From positions 1 to 16,699 of the forward strand of contig JAILQA010000452.1 of the NCBI GenBank assembly GCA_024699205.1: 16,699 nucleotides of DNA. The letters run 5' to 3'. This stretch comes from Treponema sp. GTDB taxonomy: Bacteria; Spirochaetota; Spirochaetia; Treponematales; Treponemataceae. The notes beneath the pieces were generated by a model that made no database searches, was not told where the DNA came from, and saw only the letters and a program-made list of their open reading frames with translations. The translations under genes and the position numbers were made by a program. Positions 1-15,933 of this stretch are shown piece after piece (position 1 is the first letter of the stretch; every line of letters starts with the position of its first letter).

Positions 1-498
1 TACCATTATTTTAGACAACAAAACTTTATGTGGTTTTAGAAGCATCATAAACTTTAATAATGGAGTTTTATCTTCCTCCTTCTGTTCAAATTTGTCATTT
101 GGAAAACATAAAAAGAAAATCCCAGTCCATAATTCAATAAAGTCACTTACAGGCATTTTGACAACGCCTTCTGCAGGATCATAAATCTTAATACGTTTAT
201 TTTTCACAGAATCAACTACCACATAATGTTCAACAGAGTCTCTTCTCAAATGAAAAATCGCAGGAAAGGGTATTTTTTCCAGATTATTCTTTTCTGGAAT
301 TGAAAACCCCTTGCAATTAAGGCCATATTTTTCTGCACAAACCTTTATTCCATAACCAGATGTTCCCTGAGTATCTGTTCCAGCAACTGTTCTTAATTTT
401 CTTATATTCACTTCTCTTCCATAATAATCAAGAATCATTGCCAGACAAGCCGCAGCACAATCTGATTCATCATGCTGTAAGTGAATCTTCAATCGCAT
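1..498 (-). CDS. C39 peptidase domain of a peptidase-containing ABC transporter (5' part, cut by window edge)
   Basis: The 166 visible codons have no stop, so the gene continues beyond position 1. The N-terminal half is a peptidase C39 domain, the cysteine protease fused to RiPP and bacteriocin exporters, which cleaves leaders after Gly-Gly at the inner face of the membrane. The visible triad is Cys14 within QHDESDCAAACLAMI, with the oxyanion Gln8, then His91 (EHYVVVD) and Asp107 (IYDP). After about residue 125 the domain ends and a linker leads towards what should be the transmembrane domain; the ABC ATPase part is not visible. The ATG at 498 has a good ribosome site, GGAGAG at 507-512, spaced 8 nt. 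It lies 31 bp downstream of a precursor whose leader ends in Gly-Gly, so it is the obvious processing and export partner. A stand-alone C39 protease is possible but less likely given the extension. Confidence 0.88.
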   Translation of the reverse strand, partial: MRLKIHLQHDESDCAAACLAMILDYYGREVNIRKLRTVAGTDTQGTSGYGIKVCAEKYGLNCKGFSIPEKNNLEKIPFPAIFHLRRDSVEHYVVVDSVKNKRIKIYDPAEGVVKMPVSDFIELWTGIFFLCFPNDKFEQKEEDKTPLLKFMMLLKPHKVLLSKIMV

Positions 499-529
499 AC
501 TTATTTCTCTCCGAATTTTAAATCTTTCC

Positions 530-922
530 TTAAAGCTGTTTTATTTCGTATTCTGTATACACAATCCCAGGATCAGTAATCAGATATGGATCAGGTATTT
601 TTTTACATACATACTTGTCAGTATTCATGTCAGAGGAAGTTGCAATTTGATATTTATCCTTAGGATTTACATCTACAACATGTGGAGGAGCAATAAAAAA
701 TCCATCCCTTTCAAGAGGTTTCACAACTTCAAGACCCGACTTACTACCCGTTTTTGAACCAACGCCGACACTACCGGAACAGTTACCGCCATAAGTAGGA
801 TATGTATACGAACCAGTAGATCCCATTCCAGTCAATACATTACCAGAACCACTGCATCCACCATTGATAGAAATCAAAGCAGAATAATCCAATTCCTTAC
901 ATTTAGACAATAAAAAACTCAT
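530..922 (-). CDS. RiPP precursor peptide with double-glycine leader
   Basis: This 130-residue protein has the layout of a ribosomal peptide precursor. Residues 1-22 form a leader ending LDYSALISINGG. Leu at -12, Leu at -7, Ile at -4 and Gly-Gly at -2/-1 fit the classic double-glycine consensus recognised by C39 peptidases. The predicted core starts at Cys23 and is rich in Gly, Ser, Thr and Tyr to about residue 63. It contains a near-repeat: GGCSGSGN (21-28) and GGNCSGSVG (45-53). A longer, more ordinary tail follows (64-130), with Cys106 and several prolines and aromatics. The start has AGGAGAG at 927-933, 4 nt from the ATG. It sits between a radical SAM/SPASM maturase upstream and a C39 transporter downstream on the same strand. 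The role is inferred from leader and context; I cannot assign it to a named precursor family. The mature product could be a modified core alone or the whole 108-residue part. Confidence 0.8.
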   Translation of the reverse strand: MSFLLSKCKELDYSALISINGGCSGSGNVLTGMGSTGSYTYPTYGGNCSGSVGVGSKTGSKSGLEVVKPLERDGFFIAPPHVVDVNPKDKYQIATSSDMNTDKYVCKKIPDPYLITDPGIVYTEYEIKQL

Positions 923-1013
923 GTTTCTCTCCTATAATAACTTTGTTCTTTTAAATTAAGATATAAACTCTCCCTGAATAAAATAAAAACATCATTACAT
1001 CAATAAAACTGCC

Positions 1014-3104
1014 CTAAAATACGTTTTGCATACGCTGCACAAACATCTGCATTTTTTTAGTCTGATAACCTAAAAAGCATTCCAAAGAACCCTTGTACCA
1101 TACATTACCAGATACAGGAATCTTGTATCGCTCAACCGTAGACAAGAGCATCTCCCTTGCATTTTCTGCAGACTTATCATCTGACAAAGATTCACACGAA
1201 ATCACTTTTCCAAAGTCAAAAGAATCCAGATTCTTGCAATCCATTCTCCTGCAAAAATCCTCGTCAACAGCATGCTTAGTCGCTATAAGAACAACTGTTT
1301 CAAGAATCTTATTGCTTTTTGTCTCAGAAACATTTAGCACCGAAATAAAGATATCCTCTTCAAAATCAAGATTAGATTTTCTCAGAGCCTCAAAAATCTT
1401 CCGGATTTCAAGCTCAACTTTTGTTAACGAACCTCTCACACTAAAAATCACACCATGTTCTACATAAAACTTTCTGTCAAAACAAATACCATCGTTAAAT
1501 TCCAAACCAATTTTCTTACCAAACTCCAGCAAATCTATTCCAGAATCAAGCAATCTTTGAACAAACTTTACGCTCAAAACCTGCAATCCTTGCTTCAGTT
1601 TACATTCAACCGGATCAGGCACAGAAATATCTTCCGAGTTTACAAACGAATTATAATAACAAGTCCCACCGCATAAATATTTACACCAGCAATCTTTACA
1701 TCCAGGACGCTCGTCCACACTCAAGACGCCTTCACAAACATCTTTTACTTCTTTAGAACGAATATTTCCACGTATAAACTTACTCATGCCAATAAAATAA
1801 TCACAGGGATAAATGTCACCATTATCATCGAAAATCGTATTTTCATTCCACTTGCAACGCTTCGCCAACCTACCTTTAGAAAGTATAAGTTTTACACCCA
1901 AAAATACACTATCATCTTTCAACAAATCCACCAGCGAATAATCACCAGCAACTACATCCACAAAAAAACGCTCAAACAGATTTTTATATCCGTCCAGCAA
2001 CCTTTCCACAGACACCTCATCAAAACTTGCATCCGTGCCAGCCCTTACAGGCGTTAGACTAACCGCAGACACACCAAGCTCCCTAAAATACTCCGTTAAC
2101 TTCAACGGATACGGATAATCTGATGTTAAAACCGCAGCAATACTAACCTTCAATCCAGCATTCATAAACTTCCTGATATTTTCAACAACAACAGCATGTG
2201 AAGCTTTATTATCATTAAAAGGTCTGTGAAGATTATGCACACAGGAAGGCCCATCCAGACTTACACAAATCGAATCAAGTTTGATCTCCTTAAGAAAATC
2301 AACAACTTCTTTGCTAAAAACAGTTCCATTTGTACATATGGAAAACGCATAATGGGGCTTTCGTAAAATAGTTTCAGGAAAAACCGCCTCCAGAAAACGG
2401 AGATTAAACTCCCTCAGAGAATAAAAATCAAGATTCTGCAAGTTTTTAAGCTGATTCGCTTCCCACTCCAGTAAAATCATACCGTCTGGAACAGGAAAAA
2501 AACTCACCAGATTTCTTAAATTAAGCAAAGAATCCATTTTTTTTACTACAGCATCCAGATTATCAGAATCAGAAAAATCTTCCAGAAGCACCCTTGGAAA
2601 ACAAGATAAATAACGCAGCGCAGACTCCAGGCTTTTAAAATCCCTTACAGAAAAACCAGGCATTGTCCTTTCATCGATGTACTGTTTAATTTCCTTTATC
2701 TTATTCAACTCAATTAGCGATTCCGAAGTCAAATTAACCGAAAAAGAATAAAACCAGATATGAGGAGCATAATCATCAATAATAAAATCGATAATCTTTT
2801 TTGCTTTAGCAAGCTCTGTTCTGATATGGCTCTTTTTATCCCTAAAACAATAATCACAATTTAAATTACAAAGGGTGGACAAATTAATTTTGAAAACATT
2901 ATCATCCGTTTTTACAAAAACTGACTGCTTTGGAGGAATCTGCTCTATTTTTGCCAGAACCGATTCAATCCAGCCATCAACAGAATCTTCCGAATCATTC
3001 AATTCATAAAACAAATTCCCAGAGTTCTGATCAAAAAGCAATGTCGATTTTTCTTCCTTTGAAATCAAAACTTTTGTTTTTTCCAAATCTTTTTCAATAA
3101 TCAT
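1014..3104 (-). CDS. Radical SAM/SPASM peptide maturase with unusual insert
   Basis: Numbering is from the ATG at 3104 (696 residues). The radical SAM cluster motif is CNLNCDYC with Cys79, Cys83 and Cys86. The core continues with ICTNGT (about 256-261) and VSLDGP (about 281-286). A SPASM domain follows with Cys417, Cys434, Cys469, Cys472, Cys474, Cys478, Cys482 and Cys501, which should hold auxiliary Fe-S clusters. Such enzymes cross-link or epimerise peptides. The gap between the cluster motif and TNGT is about 170 residues, longer than in typical SPASM maturases, and no GGEP motif is seen; SVNLTSE near 122 may stand in its place. About 190 residues after SPASM are unrecognised. The first 75 residues might be a PqqD-like leader-binding domain; this is only a guess. 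A TTG at 3116 gives four more codons, but the AGAAAGGG upstream abuts it and leaves about 12 nt to the ATG. It is the first gene of the operon. Confidence 0.88.
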   Translation of the reverse strand: MIIEKDLEKTKVLISKEEKSTLLFDQNSGNLFYELNDSEDSVDGWIESVLAKIEQIPPKQSVFVKTDDNVFKINLSTLCNLNCDYCFRDKKSHIRTELAKAKKIIDFIIDDYAPHIWFYSFSVNLTSESLIELNKIKEIKQYIDERTMPGFSVRDFKSLESALRYLSCFPRVLLEDFSDSDNLDAVVKKMDSLLNLRNLVSFFPVPDGMILLEWEANQLKNLQNLDFYSLREFNLRFLEAVFPETILRKPHYAFSICTNGTVFSKEVVDFLKEIKLDSICVSLDGPSCVHNLHRPFNDNKASHAVVVENIRKFMNAGLKVSIAAVLTSDYPYPLKLTEYFRELGVSAVSLTPVRAGTDASFDEVSVERLLDGYKNLFERFFVDVVAGDYSLVDLLKDDSVFLGVKLILSKGRLAKRCKWNENTIFDDNGDIYPCDYFIGMSKFIRGNIRSKEVKDVCEGVLSVDERPGCKDCWCKYLCGGTCYYNSFVNSEDISVPDPVECKLKQGLQVLSVKFVQRLLDSGIDLLEFGKKIGLEFNDGICFDRKFYVEHGVIFSVRGSLTKVELEIRKIFEALRKSNLDFEEDIFISVLNVSETKSNKILETVVLIATKHAVDEDFCRRMDCKNLDSFDFGKVISCESLSDDKSAENAREMLLSTVERYKIPVSGNVWYKGSLECFLGYQTKKMQMFVQRMQNVF

Positions 3105-3196
3105 AATCCGAACCAACCCTTTCTAATTCATTTTGTTCACACCCTATAATTAGTAAAAAAATGAAGATTTCGGACCATTCCAGAGAATAATTTTTT

Positions 3197-3224
3197 GTTA
3201 TATTTTATTTTCTCATCATGACAA
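3197..3224 (-). promoter_or_regulatory. Candidate sigma70 promoter of the RiPP operon
   Basis: On the minus strand TTGTCA (3224-3219) and TATAAC (3202-3197) are separated by 16 bp, each matching five of six consensus bases. Transcription would begin near 3190, about 86 nt before the maturase ATG. It lies in the gap after the GH5 gene, so the peptide operon probably has its own transcript. Confidence 0.45.
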
Positions 3225-3254
3225 ACACAATGATTTCAAGAAAACCGCACCACC

Positions 3255-4289
3255 CTACAGCAGCTTCACCACTTCATTCACAACCCCTTTCATGTGCTCG
3301 TCGGTCAAACCAAAGCTGTGGCTTTTATAAGTCCAGCAGGCGCGACCGATGCCACATTCCCTGAAGGCTGCATTAATATCTTTGAACCACTGTAAAGTAT
3401 CTTCCGTATTCGCCTTGTTGATTACACCATATTCACCGCAGTAAAGGGCAACATCGCGCTCCTCGCAAATCTTAATTCCTTCCTTAAATCGGTCAATAAA
3501 AAACTGCTTGTCTGTCTTGCGGTCAGGAGCAAAAGTATCACCACGGAAAACAAAATCAGACATACCATTTTTTACAGCCTCTTCATTAAGCTTTGCAATC
3601 GTACAAGGATACCCAATTCTAAAGCCCTCAGGCATACCATGCAGCCATCTTGCCCCCTGATGAGTAAAAAGCAGAGGATCATAACAGTGGAAATTATAAA
3701 CAATATTGTCATCAGCAGGCTTATCCAAATCCTTAAGAGCATCAATCGAATTATTCCAGTAACCGCCCACAAGAATCTTTACCGTCGGAGAAATCGCCCT
3801 TATTCTTCTAATTACTTCACCCGCAATTTTATTCCAGGCAGCACTATAAGAAGGCGACGTTACCTCATTCAAAAGTTCAAAACTCAACATATCTTCATTT
3901 TTAGCAAAACGACGGGCAAACTCTTCCCATAAAGCATAAAAATGTTTCTGAAGCTTTTCATCATCAAAAAAGGAAATCTTAGATTCATCAACATCAAAAG
4001 AATAACCTATCGTCTTATGCAAATCCAAAATCAAATTAAGATTATTATTAATGGCCCACAAAATAGCTTTTTCTATATACTTAAATCTGCCTTCAATAAA
4101 AGTTCCGTCGTCATTCTGAAAAACCTGATAATCCACCGGCAAACGAACATGGTCACATCCCCAGCTGGCAACCACCTCAAAATCACTTTCCTTTATAAAT
4201 TCATCGTAATGCTCAACCGTATATTCCGAACACTGAGAAAGCCATCCCCCAAAATCCACGCCTTTAACATAACCATCAAATTTTTTCAT
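3255..4289 (-). CDS. GH5 (cellulase-type) glycoside hydrolase, cytoplasmic
   Basis: The 344-residue protein is a single (beta/alpha)8 GH5 domain, a retaining endo-acting beta-glycosidase fold. Family marks are GVDFGGWLSQ (10-19), Arg49 in VRLPVDY, His91, the acid/base Glu142 in FELLNEV, His201/Tyr203, the nucleophile Glu286 in YCGEYG, and the substrate-platform Trp319. There is no signal peptide and no carbohydrate-binding module, so it probably works in the cytoplasm on imported beta-linked oligosaccharides. The substrate (cello-, manno- or other glucan) cannot be told from sequence by eye. The ATG has AGAGG about 6 nt upstream. A GC-rich repeat-like element lies between the gene and its likely promoter. 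The RiPP operon follows on the same strand, but has its own promoter candidate. Confidence 0.92.
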   Translation of the reverse strand: MKKFDGYVKGVDFGGWLSQCSEYTVEHYDEFIKESDFEVVASWGCDHVRLPVDYQVFQNDDGTFIEGRFKYIEKAILWAINNNLNLILDLHKTIGYSFDVDESKISFFDDEKLQKHFYALWEEFARRFAKNEDMLSFELLNEVTSPSYSAAWNKIAGEVIRRIRAISPTVKILVGGYWNNSIDALKDLDKPADDNIVYNFHCYDPLLFTHQGARWLHGMPEGFRIGYPCTIAKLNEEAVKNGMSDFVFRGDTFAPDRKTDKQFFIDRFKEGIKICEERDVALYCGEYGVINKANTEDTLQWFKDINAAFRECGIGRACWTYKSHSFGLTDEHMKGVVNEVVKLL

Positions 4290-4315
4290 AAAAATACCTC
4301 TATAATTTTTTTTAA

Positions 4316-4455
4316 GGGCGTGCCTGCTAAAGCAGGTCGCTATGTCCGCACTTCGCTGCCGCTCATCCGCTTCCCTCGCTCACTTCCTTCCGTCAGTTCG
4401 TTCAGTCCAGTGGACTGCTTACGCAGGTGCTCCCAGCGCTCACGCATTACATCCC
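4316..4455. repeat. GC-rich intergenic repeat-like element with nested hairpins
   Basis: This 140-bp stretch is far richer in G+C than its flanks and begins GGGCGTGCC and ends CATCCC. It contains a perfect 6-bp stem with a 2-nt loop (4323-4336, CCTGCT/AGCAGG) and another with a 3-nt loop (4403-4417, CAGTCC/GGACTG), plus many short TTCG/CGCT echoes. It is open in more than one frame without looking like a gene. It resembles the dispersed GGGCGT...CCC intergenic elements I recall from Treponema and Bacteroidetes genomes. Only one copy is in this window, so repetition is inferred. Read on the minus strand it would sit in the GH5 5' untranslated region. Confidence 0.5.
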
Positions 4456-4477
4456 ATCAAACATTTTTTTCGCCCCT

Positions 4478-4486
4478 ACTATAACA
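4478..4486 (-). promoter_or_regulatory. Candidate extended -10 promoter for GH5
   Basis: On the minus strand TGT-TATAGT forms an extended -10 element (TATAGT at 4483-4478, TG at 4486-4485) with no good -35. The start point would be near 4471, giving a leader of about 180 nt that includes the whole GC-rich element. Weak evidence. Confidence 0.3.
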
Positions 4487-4579
4487 CAAGCCCAAATCCC
4501 AATTTTTCAAAATATTTGGCTTTTTACAAATAAATTCGGTTTTAATTCACAATTCACAACACATAATTACGGGTCGTTT

Positions 4580-4608
4580 TTGATAAATATATATTATGTC
4601 GAAATAAT
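4580..4608 (+). promoter_or_regulatory. Candidate sigma70 promoter for proC
   Basis: TTGATA (4580-4585) and AATAAT (4603-4608) are separated by 17 bp, each one mismatch from consensus. The -35 box lies inside the left arm of the inverted repeat. Transcription from about 4615 would give a leader of about 114 nt. Confidence 0.4.
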
Positions 4609-4613
4609 AATCG

Positions 4614-4665
4614 TGCTGAAAGGACACCGCAGTGCCAGACTTTTTAAGGCCGTGAAACGGAAGCA
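4614..4665 (+). other. Possible three-way-junction RNA in the proC leader (unidentified)
   Basis: TGCT (4614-4617) can pair with AGCA (4662-4665). This would enclose a GG(A)CAC/GTGCC hairpin with a CGCA loop (4622-4636) and a CCGT/ACGG hairpin with a GAA loop (4650-4660). It matches no riboswitch consensus I know. The stems are short, so this is only a candidate. Confidence 0.2.
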
Positions 4666-4728
4666 GGTTTTATTGACGATGTATGTACCAATGATATATA
4701 TTTATCAAAAACATATAGTGAGGCCAAT

Positions 4729-5520: not shown

Positions 5521-6390
5521 TTAGGTTGTCTGACATTCAGACTGAAGCTTTAATACTTGTTCCAGAGATAATCCTGTAGCTTGTGCTATCTGTTCTGGTG
5601 TTCCCATGTTCATTTGGAACAGATTTTTTGCTGCTTCCAAAGCTTTAGCCTCCATGCCATTCTCAAATGCTTCTTCCTGTTTTACGGCAATATCCATCTT
5701 GTAATCATATTTTGCACACAACATGTTTATGACCTCCCGCGATTTTCTGTCAAGGTAATCGGTTAGGATTCCTTTCTCCATCGCTATCTCTATTGCCGTT
5801 CTGAACGATTTTTTCGGAAAGAGCCTATTATAATTCTGCTCGACAATTTCTATAAATTGGCAATACTCTTTCAGAATATCACAGTTTCCGTCAATCGGCA
5901 ATAATTTGGAATCGGAGCAGTTCTTCACCTTTACAACGAGCTCAAGTTTACTTCCATCTTTTACATAAAATGCATCAGACAGCCGTAAATCACTTTCCAA
6001 AGGTTGTTCCTTTTTACCCACATAAACAACATAGAAATCAGGATTCGGAATCTTGTAAACCTTTTCAGCATAGCGTTGTTTTATTGGAACAATTCCTTCA
6101 TAAATGCGAGTAACATATTCAAGACAGCGCAGCGGCATGTTTTCATTGATAGTAGATTGATGTTCAATAAGCACAATCAATTTTCCATCAATCTCCCAGC
6201 TTACATCGTTGTTAAAAGTTTTGTAGAGAGACTGTTCGATAACTTTGCGTTCAAGCGAGATTTGTTCCAAGCCGTAATTATTCCCCGAAAGCGCGTTGTA
6301 TAACTCAAGAAAGTTCTTCTTTCCATCCCTGTCGCTTCCAAATAAATCCGTAAAAACGGAATCTTTATACTTACGGTTTCTTTTTGCCAT
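5521..6390 (-). CDS. Rpn-family PD-(D/E)XK nuclease / putative transposase-like protein
   Basis: The 289-residue protein belongs to the COG5464/PDDEXK group named 'recombination-promoting nuclease/putative transposase', whose E. coli members cut DNA and promote RecA-independent recombination. The nuclease core is seen as Asp62 and Asp68 in NDVSWEIDGK, then LIVLIEHQST with Glu76 and Gln78 (an ExQ form of the motif), followed by Arg88 and Tyr92. The C-terminus has an Ala/Lys-rich helix and a small helical module, GTPEQIAQATGLSLEQVLKL, which resembles a helix-turn-helix and recurs in the gene at 15100. GGAAGG lies 5-6 nt before the ATG. No inverted repeats flank it, so there is no sign that it is an insertion sequence. 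The biological role is unknown. Confidence 0.85.
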   Translation of the reverse strand: MAKRNRKYKDSVFTDLFGSDRDGKKNFLELYNALSGNNYGLEQISLERKVIEQSLYKTFNNDVSWEIDGKLIVLIEHQSTINENMPLRCLEYVTRIYEGIVPIKQRYAEKVYKIPNPDFYVVYVGKKEQPLESDLRLSDAFYVKDGSKLELVVKVKNCSDSKLLPIDGNCDILKEYCQFIEIVEQNYNRLFPKKSFRTAIEIAMEKGILTDYLDRKSREVINMLCAKYDYKMDIAVKQEEAFENGMEAKALEAAKNLFQMNMGTPEQIAQATGLSLEQVLKLQSECQTT

Positions 6391-9792: not shown

Positions 9793-10728
9793 GTGAGCAA
9801 AAGATTATTCAGCACAATTTTTAGTTTTTTTATCATCGCGTCAACCTTTACACTTTTTGCAAGCCCGTCAATTTCCGTGCAAGCAGAACCAAAAGAATTA
9901 AATCTCTTTAGAAGAGCCTACCCTGACATCACCTTTAAATCAACTTATGATGCAAAAGTCAAAGATTTTTTAATCACAATCACCTGTGAAGGCCGAAGCG
10001 CTGACTTTTACTGGCAAAACGCAAGTCTTATTCCCCCTCAGGAACTCCAGAACGCAGAAAATTACAGTACGCTTCTTTATCCTTATGCAGAAAAAATCCC
10101 AGACCCAAAGGATTTTACTCCAGAAGATATAGAAAGAATCCGCAATTATTCTTCAAAGGAAAACCGCACTAAGGGAGCAAAAACTCCGCCATTTTTTTAT
10201 GATTTGATTTATGACTGCAAAACCCGGGCTGCCTTGGAAAAACACATCATCAAACACACATTTTTAGGAAAAAGCACCATAATCCACGAGAGAATTAAAG
10301 AACCTCTGCTGAGAGTTGAAAAAAAGATTCTTGATGAAGCAAAAGTTACCCCGGAAGTTCAAACTTTTCTTGATAAGCTTTTAAGTGCCGACAGTTACAA
10401 CTGGCGCGAGATTCAGGATTCAGGAAATCGCTCTTTTCATAGTCTTGGAATTGCCCTTGATATTCTTCCAAAAGGCTGGGGACAGAAAAACGTATACTGG
10501 GCCTGGCGACGAGATTTTGACAAGGACTGGATGCTTCTTCCTTTGAACCGACGCTGGACACCACCCGAAAAAGTTGTTGAGATTTTTGAATCAGAAGGAT
10601 TTATCTACGGTGGAAAATGGATTATCTGGGATAACATGCATTTTGAATATCACCCGGAAATTATTTTATACAATGCAAAATCAGCTTCAAACACATCATC
10701 AAACAAATCAACAAGCACCTCAAGATAA
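9793..10728 (+). CDS. Secreted M15-family D-Ala-D-Ala carboxypeptidase-like peptidase
   Basis: The 311-residue protein starts with a signal peptide: a basic start, a hydrophobic run to about residue 23, and a likely cut after SISVQA at 31. The C-terminal M15 (VanY/DacY-like) zinc peptidase domain has His216 and Asp223 in SFHSLGIALDI, then Asp280 and His283 in WDNMHFEYH. Together these give the usual HxxxxxxD...(D/E)xxH layout of two His and one Asp zinc ligands plus an acidic catalytic residue. Such enzymes trim peptidoglycan stem peptides. The region 32-190 is family-specific and unrecognised; the last 15 residues are a Ser/Thr/Asn tail. The GTG start lacks a Shine-Dalgarno sequence, but no later start would keep the signal peptide. 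It is the first of three close genes on this strand. Confidence 0.85.
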   Translation: MSKRLFSTIFSFFIIASTFTLFASPSISVQAEPKELNLFRRAYPDITFKSTYDAKVKDFLITITCEGRSADFYWQNASLIPPQELQNAENYSTLLYPYAEKIPDPKDFTPEDIERIRNYSSKENRTKGAKTPPFFYDLIYDCKTRAALEKHIIKHTFLGKSTIIHERIKEPLLRVEKKILDEAKVTPEVQTFLDKLLSADSYNWREIQDSGNRSFHSLGIALDILPKGWGQKNVYWAWRRDFDKDWMLLPLNRRWTPPEKVVEIFESEGFIYGGKWIIWDNMHFEYHPEIILYNAKSASNTSSNKSTSTSR

Positions 10729-12378: not shown

Positions 12379-12390
12379 ATGGAGATATTC

Positions 12391-13485
12391 ATGAGAAAAA
12401 CAAGAAGAAATCTATCCGAAAATCTATCTGAAAGCTCACGAAAGAATGATTTTTTTGTTGAAATATCCATTGTATTGCTGATATTCCTCATTTTTAATTT
12501 TTCTTCCTGTACAAATCAAAAAATAAAATCAGAAGCAGAATACACCCTCAGAGCTCCTGCACAAGAATCCCTTGAGTTCAATGAAACCTGGAGTTTTGTT
12601 TTGCAAGGCCGTGAAGAGGAATACAAACCAGAAATGCCAGTTACAGATCTTTGCTACTATTATACTGATATAAATTGCTACGGCGAGTTGATTGATATTC
12701 CAAATCGTGCAAAACTCACTGTAAACGAAGGAACGCGGGTTCATTTTGGAATGTGCTGCCAGAGTACCTCGCTTACACATTTTGTTATTAACCCGGAATA
12801 CGGACTGCGGGACAGAATCATAAAAGAAATTGTAGATGCAGCCAAAGCTTTTGACGGCATCCAGCTTGATTTTGAATATGTTCCCCGCCGTGATAAAAAG
12901 AAATATCTTGATTTTATTCAGAAAGTGCGTGAAGAAATCAATGCTCAAAATAAAGAGTGTGATAAAAATCAAATGCTTTCTGTATGTCTTCCTGGACGTT
13001 ATAAAGATGCCGAAAGCGACTTTTTTACCTACAAAGAAATTGCCAAGCTTTGCGACAGAGTTTTTATAATGGCTTATGATGAACATTGGGCTACAAGCCA
13101 GCCTGGTCCAGTAGCTTCTACCGAATGGAGCAAAAAAGTTGTCGATTTTGCCCTTACACAAATCCCTCAGGAAAAGTTGATAATGGGAATGCCTTTTTAC
13201 GGCCGCACCTGGAATGATAAAAGCACAGCAAAGGCCTGGTACTTTTCAAGCTTACAACAAAACATGATAGAAAACGACGTTAAGGATGTTTATTATGAAA
13301 ACGACATCCCTATGTTCAAATACAAAACAGAAGTTGAAGTTACTGGTTATTTTAATGATAACTATTCTGTTTTAAACTTATGCGATATTTACCAAAAGGC
13401 AGGCATAGACAAGGTTGGCTTCTGGCGAATCGGTTTTGAATCCGAAGATTTCTGGAATTACATAAAAATCCGCAAAGAAGATTAA
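12391..13485 (+). CDS. GH18 domain lipoprotein (YaaH/SleL-like glycosidase)
   Basis: From the ATG at 12391 (GGAGA 5 nt upstream) the protein has 364 residues; an ATG at 12379 abuts the preceding stop and lacks a ribosome site. The N-terminus is basic, then a hydrophobic stretch (22-37) ends in NFSSC, a relaxed spirochaete-type lipobox with Cys40 as lipid anchor. The GH18 domain shows FDGIQLDFEYVP with Asp155, Asp160 and the catalytic Glu162, then VFIMAYDEHW, GMPFYGRTW and the terminal KVGFWRIG strand. The DxxxDxE form and the MAYD and FYGRxW motifs are like spore-cortex SleL/YaaH enzymes, which cut N-acetylglucosaminyl bonds in peptidoglycan; chitin is the other possible substrate. It is the third gene of the operon, 12 bp after the ABC gene. 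No convincing terminator follows. Confidence 0.85.
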   Translation: MRKTRRNLSENLSESSRKNDFFVEISIVLLIFLIFNFSSCTNQKIKSEAEYTLRAPAQESLEFNETWSFVLQGREEEYKPEMPVTDLCYYYTDINCYGELIDIPNRAKLTVNEGTRVHFGMCCQSTSLTHFVINPEYGLRDRIIKEIVDAAKAFDGIQLDFEYVPRRDKKKYLDFIQKVREEINAQNKECDKNQMLSVCLPGRYKDAESDFFTYKEIAKLCDRVFIMAYDEHWATSQPGPVASTEWSKKVVDFALTQIPQEKLIMGMPFYGRTWNDKSTAKAWYFSSLQQNMIENDVKDVYYENDIPMFKYKTEVEVTGYFNDNYSVLNLCDIYQKAGIDKVGFWRIGFESEDFWNYIKIRKED

Positions 13486-15099: not shown

Positions 15100-15933
15100 A
15101 TGAAAAATGATAGTTATCATCCGAAATCTGTTGACGAACTAACCTTCACCGATGATGGAATGTTTCAAGCAGTATTACATAATCCAGAAATATGTGCGGA
15201 ACTTATCGAAAGATTACTTCATATCAAAGTAAATCACGTAGATTATCCTGAACTTGAAAAACAAATAGCACCTTACTATTCCAGCAAGGGGGTAAGGCTG
15301 GATGTTTATGTAAAGGATGATGATAAGATAATCGATATAGAAATCCAATCATATAAACAAGAAGCTCTAGGAAAACGCACACGTTATTACCAAAGCATGG
15401 TTGATATCGATTGTATTTTGAAAGGCCAGGATTATACAGAATTAAAAGACAGTTACATTTTATTTATCTGTAAGGATGATCCTTTTACTTTTAAGGAAAA
15501 CAGTAAAAATCATTTTGGCATCCCCTGTTATACATTTAAAAATATTTGCCTTGAGAATCAAGCAGTTAAATTAGATGACAAAAGCCTTAAGGTGATTTAT
15601 AATTCAAGTGCATATGAAAAAGAAAGCGATGAAAAAATACGAGGCTTTCTTCATTATATATACACGAATGAACCTGGAGAAGATGATTTTTCCAACCGCC
15701 TTTCTGCCCTAGTTGAAAAGATAAAAGAAAACGACAGATTCAGGAGGGATTACGCCGCCATGAACTTACACGATAGAGACATTCAAAGAGCTGCAAAAAA
15801 AGAAGGAGCTCATCAAAAAGCTTTAGAAACCGCAAAAAATCTTCTTAAGATGAAGTTACTGACAGTTGAACAAATTTCACAAGCCGCTGGTCTTTCTATA
15901 GAGGAAATAAATAAACTTGCTAATGAACTTTAA
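15100..15933 (+). CDS. Rpn-family PD-(D/E)XK nuclease / putative transposase-like protein (second copy)
   Basis: The 277-residue protein is another COG5464-type PD-(D/E)XK nuclease, only distantly similar to the one at 5521. The core reads GVRLDVYVKDDDKIIDIEIQ with Asp68, Glu81 and Gln83, followed by KRTRYYQSMVD (Arg93, Arg95). The N-terminal part (FTDDGMFQAVLHNPEIC) is the helical segment typical of this subgroup. The C-terminus has MKLLTVEQISQAAGLSIEEI, clearly the same module as in the other copy. AGGAG lies 8 nt before the ATG. There are no flanking inverted repeats. Function is inferred only from family; these genes are often present in many copies in Treponema and gut Firmicutes genomes. 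Confidence 0.87.
   Translation: MKNDSYHPKSVDELTFTDDGMFQAVLHNPEICAELIERLLHIKVNHVDYPELEKQIAPYYSSKGVRLDVYVKDDDKIIDIEIQSYKQEALGKRTRYYQSMVDIDCILKGQDYTELKDSYILFICKDDPFTFKENSKNHFGIPCYTFKNICLENQAVKLDDKSLKVIYNSSAYEKESDEKIRGFLHYIYTNEPGEDDFSNRLSALVEKIKENDRFRRDYAAMNLHDRDIQRAAKKEGAHQKALETAKNLLKMKLLTVEQISQAAGLSIEEINKLANEL

Follow-up and report, generated by a model that had tools for sequence, protein, structure and literature searches.

A Treponema peptide maturation and export locus whose relatives probably carry polymorphic toxins

Introduction

What does a bacterium make from a locus in which a radical S-adenosylmethionine (SAM) enzyme, a peptide with a double-glycine (GG) leader and a C39-type exporter stand side by side, when the peptide belongs to no named family? 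This question is raised by one end of the window analyzed here, which is the whole of contig C516 (JAILQA010000452.1; 16699 bases) of a Treponema sp. draft genome that comprises 523 contigs and is 73% complete. An initial annotation, made from the sequence alone, had read this locus as a system for a ribosomally synthesized and post-translationally modified peptide (RiPP). The maturase, precursor and exporter behind that reading stand. The loci of relatives favor toxin and immunity functions over a plain small RiPP, because such maturases and leaders in relatives accompany long GG proteins that have exchangeable domains and secreted partners. We narrowly favor the view that the window holds a member without a toxin from a family of Treponema loci for maturing and exporting peptides, which combine a probable thioether maturase with C39 export and, in relatives, with probable toxins.

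Three genes on one strand

The three genes lie on the minus strand in the order maturase (1014-3104), GG-leader protein of 130 amino acids (530-922) and start of a C39 peptidase-containing ABC (ATP-binding cassette) exporter (1-498). The gaps between them are 91 bases (maturase to precursor) and 31 bases (precursor to exporter), and ribosome-site-like sequences precede the starts of the precursor and exporter genes. That these genes form a single-strand system of maturase, GG precursor and C39 exporter, as the initial annotation proposed, is well supported. That the locus looked complete was wrong, as the exporter frame runs off the contig and only its first 166 amino acids are encoded. A promoter candidate that had been placed at 3197-3224 was not recovered either: it is missing from the sites of our promoter scan, and promoter-like sites in 1-4700 are no more numerous than in shuffled sequences (11 vs 14.5). 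Scans of the window with Rfam (gathering scores) and for tRNAs gave no matches.

The precursor opens with a leader of 22 residues (MSFLLSKCKELDYSALISINGG; 857-922, minus strand), in which residue positions bear out the previously described pattern of L-12, L-7, I-4 and GG. Directly after the GG stands a first C-S-G-S motif (residues 23-26; 845-856, minus strand), which is followed by a second (residues 48-51; 770-781, minus strand). Both are candidate modification sites, as judged by the motif enrichment described below, and one further cysteine of the peptide lacks a Gly at +2. The protein has no known domain, with 0 Pfam families matching to E 5 and 0 NCBIfam families to E 0.1, which agrees with the lack of an earlier match to any named RiPP class. 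Its relative P0072 is 94% identical. Overall, the leader recurs in relatives and the rest of the protein varies. A 29-position leader profile, built from 12 training rows with the window leader among them, matches the window leader at 62.6 bits (E 1.1e-16). This profile matches 30 of 196 genomes of the genus at E <= 0.05 and, since it covers the first Cys motif, is biased toward motif-bearing cargos. By eye, the tail of the window peptide and P0073 have a patch in common, K[IV]P[DN]PYxIxDxGxV.

The exporter frame (3-498, minus strand) matches Peptidase_C39 (PF03412, E 2e-39). It has the expected Cys14/His91/Asp107 triad and, in addition, Gln8, with all four residues invariant in 11 aligned C39 domains. 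Residues 1-165 are 65% identical to the full exporter of locus L010, which has the ABC domains PF00664 and PF00005; the window frame stops before that region. The HlyD-like and TolC-like genes of relatives would lie beyond the contig in this genome. We considered contig C94 as the 3' piece of the exporter (46% over residues 482-709) and rejected it, as the match lies at a contig start and the neighboring genes are unlike those of relatives.

The maturase, at 696 amino acids, consists of an N-terminal part that aligns with CteB, a radical SAM core, a SPASM domain and a GyrI-like domain, and is indeed the SPASM radical SAM enzyme that had been predicted. The protein as scanned from a TTG at 3116 matches PF04055 (E 7.6e-13); an ATG at 3104 makes a better start. 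The CX3CX2C motif of the enzyme (C79/C83/C86) and its seven SPASM cysteines (C417-x11-G429-x4-C434, C469-x2-C472-x5-C478-x3-C482 and C501) are invariant over 37 aligned proteins, and the NCBIfam SPASM domain model TIGR04085 scores 42.8 bits against a cut-off of 27. Among the best 25 of 57 matching NCBIfam families, the highest maturase scores are those of PapB (117.1 bits), nif11 (114) and SCIFF (103), which are far under the cut-offs of these named equivalogs (340, 519 and 425, respectively). As to a possible leader-binding RRE domain, strands and a helix at the N-terminus can be aligned with CteB, the SCIFF thioether maturase (PDB 5wgg), starting from CteB residue 1; maturase residues 1-80 gave no Pfam match of note. 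Members of this maturase family have about 100 residues between the CX3CX2C and a TNG motif that are absent from P0027-P0036. Finally, the C-terminal extension (residues 535-696; 1014-1502, minus strand) has a GyrI-like fold that was aligned in 27 of 27 long family members compared, and it has no matching PDB sequence. A role in anti-phage defense was considered and set aside, as the maturase gave only weak general viperin-model matches and three other proteins tried gave none.

Exchangeable cargo domains in the loci of relatives

Four named loci found by the maturase are all labelled Treponema, one of them from water-buffalo rumen and one from horse feces, which makes a gut Treponema the very probable source of the window. 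In L010-L013, which are among the closer relatives, the maturase is followed by a long GG cargo, a Sec-signal protein (220-240 amino acids), a short GG peptide (95-132 amino acids), a full C39 ABC exporter of about 715 amino acids, a HlyD-like protein and a TolC-like start. The L013 flank begins inside the maturase, and the TolC-like start is seen only in the three loci whose flank reaches it. The names HlyD-like and TolC-like, as well as Rhs-type below, were assigned by eye and not from a family search or Pfam match. Relative to L010-L013, the window keeps the maturase, short GG peptide and exporter and is missing the long cargo and the Sec protein. More distant maturases (L014-L017, L055-L060 and L062) also adjoin GG cargos or GG peptides.

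The long cargos have a common layout of a leader, a Gly/Ser-rich linker with many C-[SG]-G-[SG] motifs, and a C-terminal domain that is exchangeable. Pfam recognizes M23 domains in L060 (E 8.3e-17) and L133 (E 4e-27) and a VanY/M15 domain in L148 (E 1.3e-12). A further type, termed alpha here, has a papain-like fold with Gln/Cys/His/Asp; it has no Pfam match and no matching PDB sequence. Additional Cys/His domain types, which we named beta, gamma, delta and zeta, have no Pfam matches of note. By eye, gamma and delta may resemble CHAP/NlpC domains, without a Pfam match.

In these relatives the M23, VanY and papain-like C-terminal domains are swapped behind a near-identical N-terminus. Specifically, the N-terminus of the L060 M23 cargo is 98% identical over 52 amino acids to that of P0098 (papain-like), and the N-terminus of the L148 VanY cargo is 96% identical over 52 amino acids to that of P0096 (papain-like). 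In L133 the N-termini of an M23 cargo and a gamma cargo are 79% identical over 98 amino acids. In the maturase tree, papain-like toxins (L010-L012, L015) and beta toxins (L055-L056, L057, L139-L141) fall under separate branches, as expected if toxins move between systems. The papain-like domain is also found at the C-terminus of Rhs-type giants and of one phage-tail-like protein. A sequence link between this domain and C39 was sought and rejected (hhalign probability 0.2%), so the relationship rests on fold and residue order.

The comparison with L010-L013 raises the possibility that the window is a remnant that lost its toxin and partner, with the short peptide being an accessory, such as a spacer, an adhesion factor or an export helper, and not antibacterial. 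The order maturase, toxin, partner, short peptide and ABC gene in L010-L013 favors this, as the window keeps only the short peptide beside the ABC gene. We consider it unlikely nonetheless: the leader of the peptide is intact, both CSGS motifs are present, a homologue is 94% identical, and the tail patch in common with P0073 (seen by eye) argues against plain decay.

Several observations on related loci should also be recorded. L133 (genome G107, 4650-18098) is a dense island that holds a gamma toxin, two M23 domains, one of them in a leaderless frame, several immunity-like genes that stand apart from their toxin and, by eye, a transposase-like frame. Rhs/YD-type proteins (by eye) that end in the papain-like domain occur in L092, L093, L094, L095, L096, L098 and L099; four exceed 1800 amino acids, others are cut by contig ends, and five have a 409-amino-acid protein downstream. 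The window genome has a second maturase on contig C217 (L018 2084-3375), about 30% identical and truncated at the end of that contig; the genes upstream of it resemble by eye those of L057, a locus with a beta-type GG toxin. An 821-amino-acid maturase relative adjoins a C39 exporter and a 485-amino-acid protein in L063 (8753-11218) and L064 (8025-10490), and no GG cargo was recognized within the listed stretches of these two loci. Near maturases of another branch, L017 (8240-8722) and L062 (6262-6618) encode GG peptides with a hydrophobic Ala/Gly-rich end that adjoin proteins with several membrane-span-like stretches (by eye); these pairs could be a pore-former with membrane immunity.

Downstream partners as candidate immunity proteins

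We defined the partner of a cargo as the nearest same-strand gene starting <=600 bases downstream, and applied this to a hand-made list of 29 cargos, of which 28 are GG-led and one is the phage-tail protein; short GG peptides and contig-cut frames were omitted. A partner is present for 28 of the 29. By a simple and crude signal-peptide rule, 26 of 28 partners pass, as compared to 65 of 245 control frames, and for the two that fail (L149, L060) a plausible signal starts, by eye, from an internal Met. Clusters of partners mostly track the cargo type: seven papain-like partners fall together, with the phage-tail case included, as do four gamma and two delta partners, beta partners form four groups, and the rest stand alone. 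A profile of seven papain-like partners from GG contexts matches the phage-tail partner (E 1.2e-17). For the Rhs-borne copies, partner similarity is weak in L099 (E 1.7e-4) and was not found in L092 and L094. Partner-type genes also occur without an adjacent toxin (e.g. L133, L148, L059, L060), and in L140 a gene like the partner of the L013 gamma cargo lies upstream of a beta cargo. Secreted or lipoprotein partners would protect in the periplasm, and targets would therefore lie in the envelope. This suggests that the partners are periplasmic immunity proteins against toxins with envelope targets.

A Cys-x-Gly motif that tracks the maturase

In 19 GG proteins (7 short, 12 long), with linker ends placed by hand, 53 of 63 post-leader cysteines have Gly at +2 relative to an expectation of 12.5, and there are 38 occurrences of C[SG]G[SG] relative to 2.8 expected. 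Each count is reached in 0/1000 shuffles, and [SG] at +4 is not enriched (21 vs 25.8). In 53 further papain-like rows, Gly is at +2 of 97 of 129 cysteines relative to 28.5 expected (0/1000 shuffles) and is depleted at +4 (11 vs 28.2). Sequences in the 19 and 53 are related, so these shuffle counts are not independent. The 53 rows come from 66 homologues, of which 4 were dropped for being identical or similar to rows of the first set and 9 because NG[GA] does not occur within their first 70 residues. This Cys-x-Gly enrichment is suggestive of a sactipeptide- or ranthipeptide-like thioether site in the window peptide and its relatives.

At the genome level, motif and maturase occur together in 18 genomes, the motif alone in 3, a maturase without the motif in 0 and neither in 4 (p 0.0028). 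This table, which was hand-typed and drawn partly from sequences by eye, covers 25 of the 30 leader-profile genomes, and the test uses presence or absence only (G180 has a count of 3 and was typed as 4). Left out were G019 (no value), G192 (frame missed) and G200, G142 and G164 (no maturase-profile search); by eye, G019 and G192 would fall in the class with motif and maturase. G191 was assumed equal to G034, given a nearly identical match, and both were counted. Two thresholds defined maturase presence, and the seven negative genomes were all searched with the same one.

These results bear on a second explanation, in which the window peptide would be a plain GG bacteriocin or signal that stays unmodified, with the maturase having some other substrate. 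C39 exporters often carry unmodified peptides; in addition, the window peptide matches no RiPP family model, 16 of the 53 papain-like rows have no linker Cys, and maturase was not detected in four genomes with motif-free GG cargos. Set against this, the maturase adjoins the precursor in the window and a GG cargo in several relatives, and Cys-x-Gly is strongly enriched and tracks the maturase across genomes. We regard this explanation as decidedly unlikely.

Proposed mechanism and evidence against it

Taken together, the loci of relatives probably encode polymorphic antibacterial toxins with periplasmic immunity that leave by C39 type I export and have linkers modified by the radical SAM enzyme. 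From the genes, motifs, gene order, cargo exchange and partner association observed in the sequences, we infer linker modification, a cleavage site, killing and immunity as follows. The SPASM enzyme would bind the GG leader and, as its kin and the motif imply, would form thioether-type crosslinks at the cysteines in C-[SG]-G-[SG] motifs. The C39 exporter would cleave after Gly22, as is known for the family, and an ABC, HlyD-like and TolC-like assembly, parts of which are seen in relatives, would carry the product across both membranes. More speculatively, a stiffened or protease-resistant linker would then present an enzyme, or just the short peptide in the case of the window. Leaders and Cys-motif linkers of this kind would, in relatives, carry exchangeable, immunity-guarded toxins, some of them cell-wall-type peptidases. 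The window product would be a short modified peptide alone, probably bacteriocin-like or an accessory factor. A bolder version, which we offer tentatively and with a little under even confidence, is that these loci form a new class of polymorphic toxins that use GG-leader C39 export and SPASM-crosslinked disordered linkers, with the window as a stripped form in which the maturase senses or grips a ligand by its GyrI-like domain.

Several results weigh against a toxin family with modified linkers. Neither a toxin domain nor a partner gene is present in the window locus, whose only exported product would be the short peptide, and a search of its own 73% complete genome did not recover the remainder of the exporter. 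A Pfam-recognized cell-wall peptidase domain is present in only 3 of 28 GG cargos. Partners of beta cargos fall in four groups, and the partner of the papain-like cargo in L015 clusters with gamma partners, the sole mixed cluster. In regards to the motif, three genomes (G107, G211, G140) have Cys-x-Gly cargos and no detected maturase, and in two genomes with a maturase (G054, G190) there are also GG toxins that by eye are motif-free (L101, L102). Gly at -2 of Cys is enriched as well in the 53 papain-like rows, less strongly (53 vs 28.2), and therefore part of the motif signal reflects a general Gly setting; the Cys-x-Gly motif could serve another purpose.

That toxin and partner genes exist and simply dropped out of the assembly is very unlikely: the draft is fragmented and incomplete and leader-linker repeats can collapse, but the maturase/precursor gap is just 91 bases with a ribosome-site-like sequence inside, and searches of the same genome with the L011 papain-like toxin and with the leader profile returned only the window leader and the window locus, respectively.

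Relation to known systems

The SPASM maturase, GG peptide, C39 exporter and polymorphic toxins are known kinds of components that are combined here in an apparently undescribed way. The maturase resembles CteB/PapB-type ranthipeptide enzymes in its radical SAM core and SPASM domain (aligned over model residues 9-519), and differs by its GyrI-like tail, by the insertion of about 100 residues and by C-x-G substrates that often have extra domains. For streptosactin (GggA/GggB), one passage of the published paper gives unnested thioethers Cys25-Ser28 and Cys31-Gly34 and another prints Cys15 (PMC8172795). The spacing from Cys to the third residue matches C-[SG]-G-[SG]; streptosactin is a small streptococcal peptide with a separate protease, and the likeness is one of spacing.

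On the export side, PCAT1, colicin/microcin V-type exporters and Treponema denticola TepA1/TepB1 share the C39 triad, the oxyanion Gln and a HlyD-like partner with the systems described here. GG proteins are reported upstream of tepA1 in T. denticola (PMC4947327). The word 'radical' does not occur in that paper, and the cargos here are predicted modular toxins.

The relatives' loci resemble polymorphic toxin systems in having a constant N-terminus, an exchangeable C-terminal toxin and adjacent as well as orphan immunity genes, and in that one toxin domain occurs in several delivery systems (Zhang et al., 2012; PMC3482391). Section 3 of that paper gives type I export for RTX toxins; its Table 1 has no GG-leader/C39 route, and 'radical SAM' is unmentioned in the first 300,000 characters of the text. 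Cpe1 is described as a papain-like toxin linked to type VI secretion (T6SS) and contact-dependent inhibition (CDI) that cuts GyrB/ParE (PMC12136450). The systems here differ from Cpe1 and CdiA-CT (8ssk) in that Sec signals are present on the partners, which makes an envelope target probable. Searches of the open-licence literature, which leaves subscription papers mostly outside, gave no description of radical SAM-linked or GG-leader/C39 polymorphic toxins, nor of a SPASM enzyme with a GyrI-like tail.

If the toxin interpretation is true, polymorphic toxins would have a new delivery and maturation route, in bacteria on whose interbacterial weapons we found little, and radical SAM peptide chemistry would reach beyond small peptides to whole modular secreted enzymes. 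A Cys-x-Gly linker together with a neighboring maturase would then be a rule for finding such toxins, and several toxin and immunity families would be candidates for new ones. Fusion of a GyrI-like tail to the maturase also raises the question of whether a RiPP enzyme is controlled by a ligand or product.

Other genes of the window

A GH5 cellulase gene (3255-4289; Pfam) lies before the maturase as a separate gene. Elsewhere in the window are two genes of the PD-(D/E)XK (Rpn/YhgA-like) transposase type, one supported by Pfam (5521-6390) and the second judged by eye (15100-15933), and a probable GH20-type enzyme of which only the start lies on the contig (15978-16697; by eye). Secreted-looking enzymes recognized by Pfam are a VanY-type M15 peptidase (9793-10728) and a GH18 glycosidase (12379-13485), and the GH5 enzyme likewise looks secreted.

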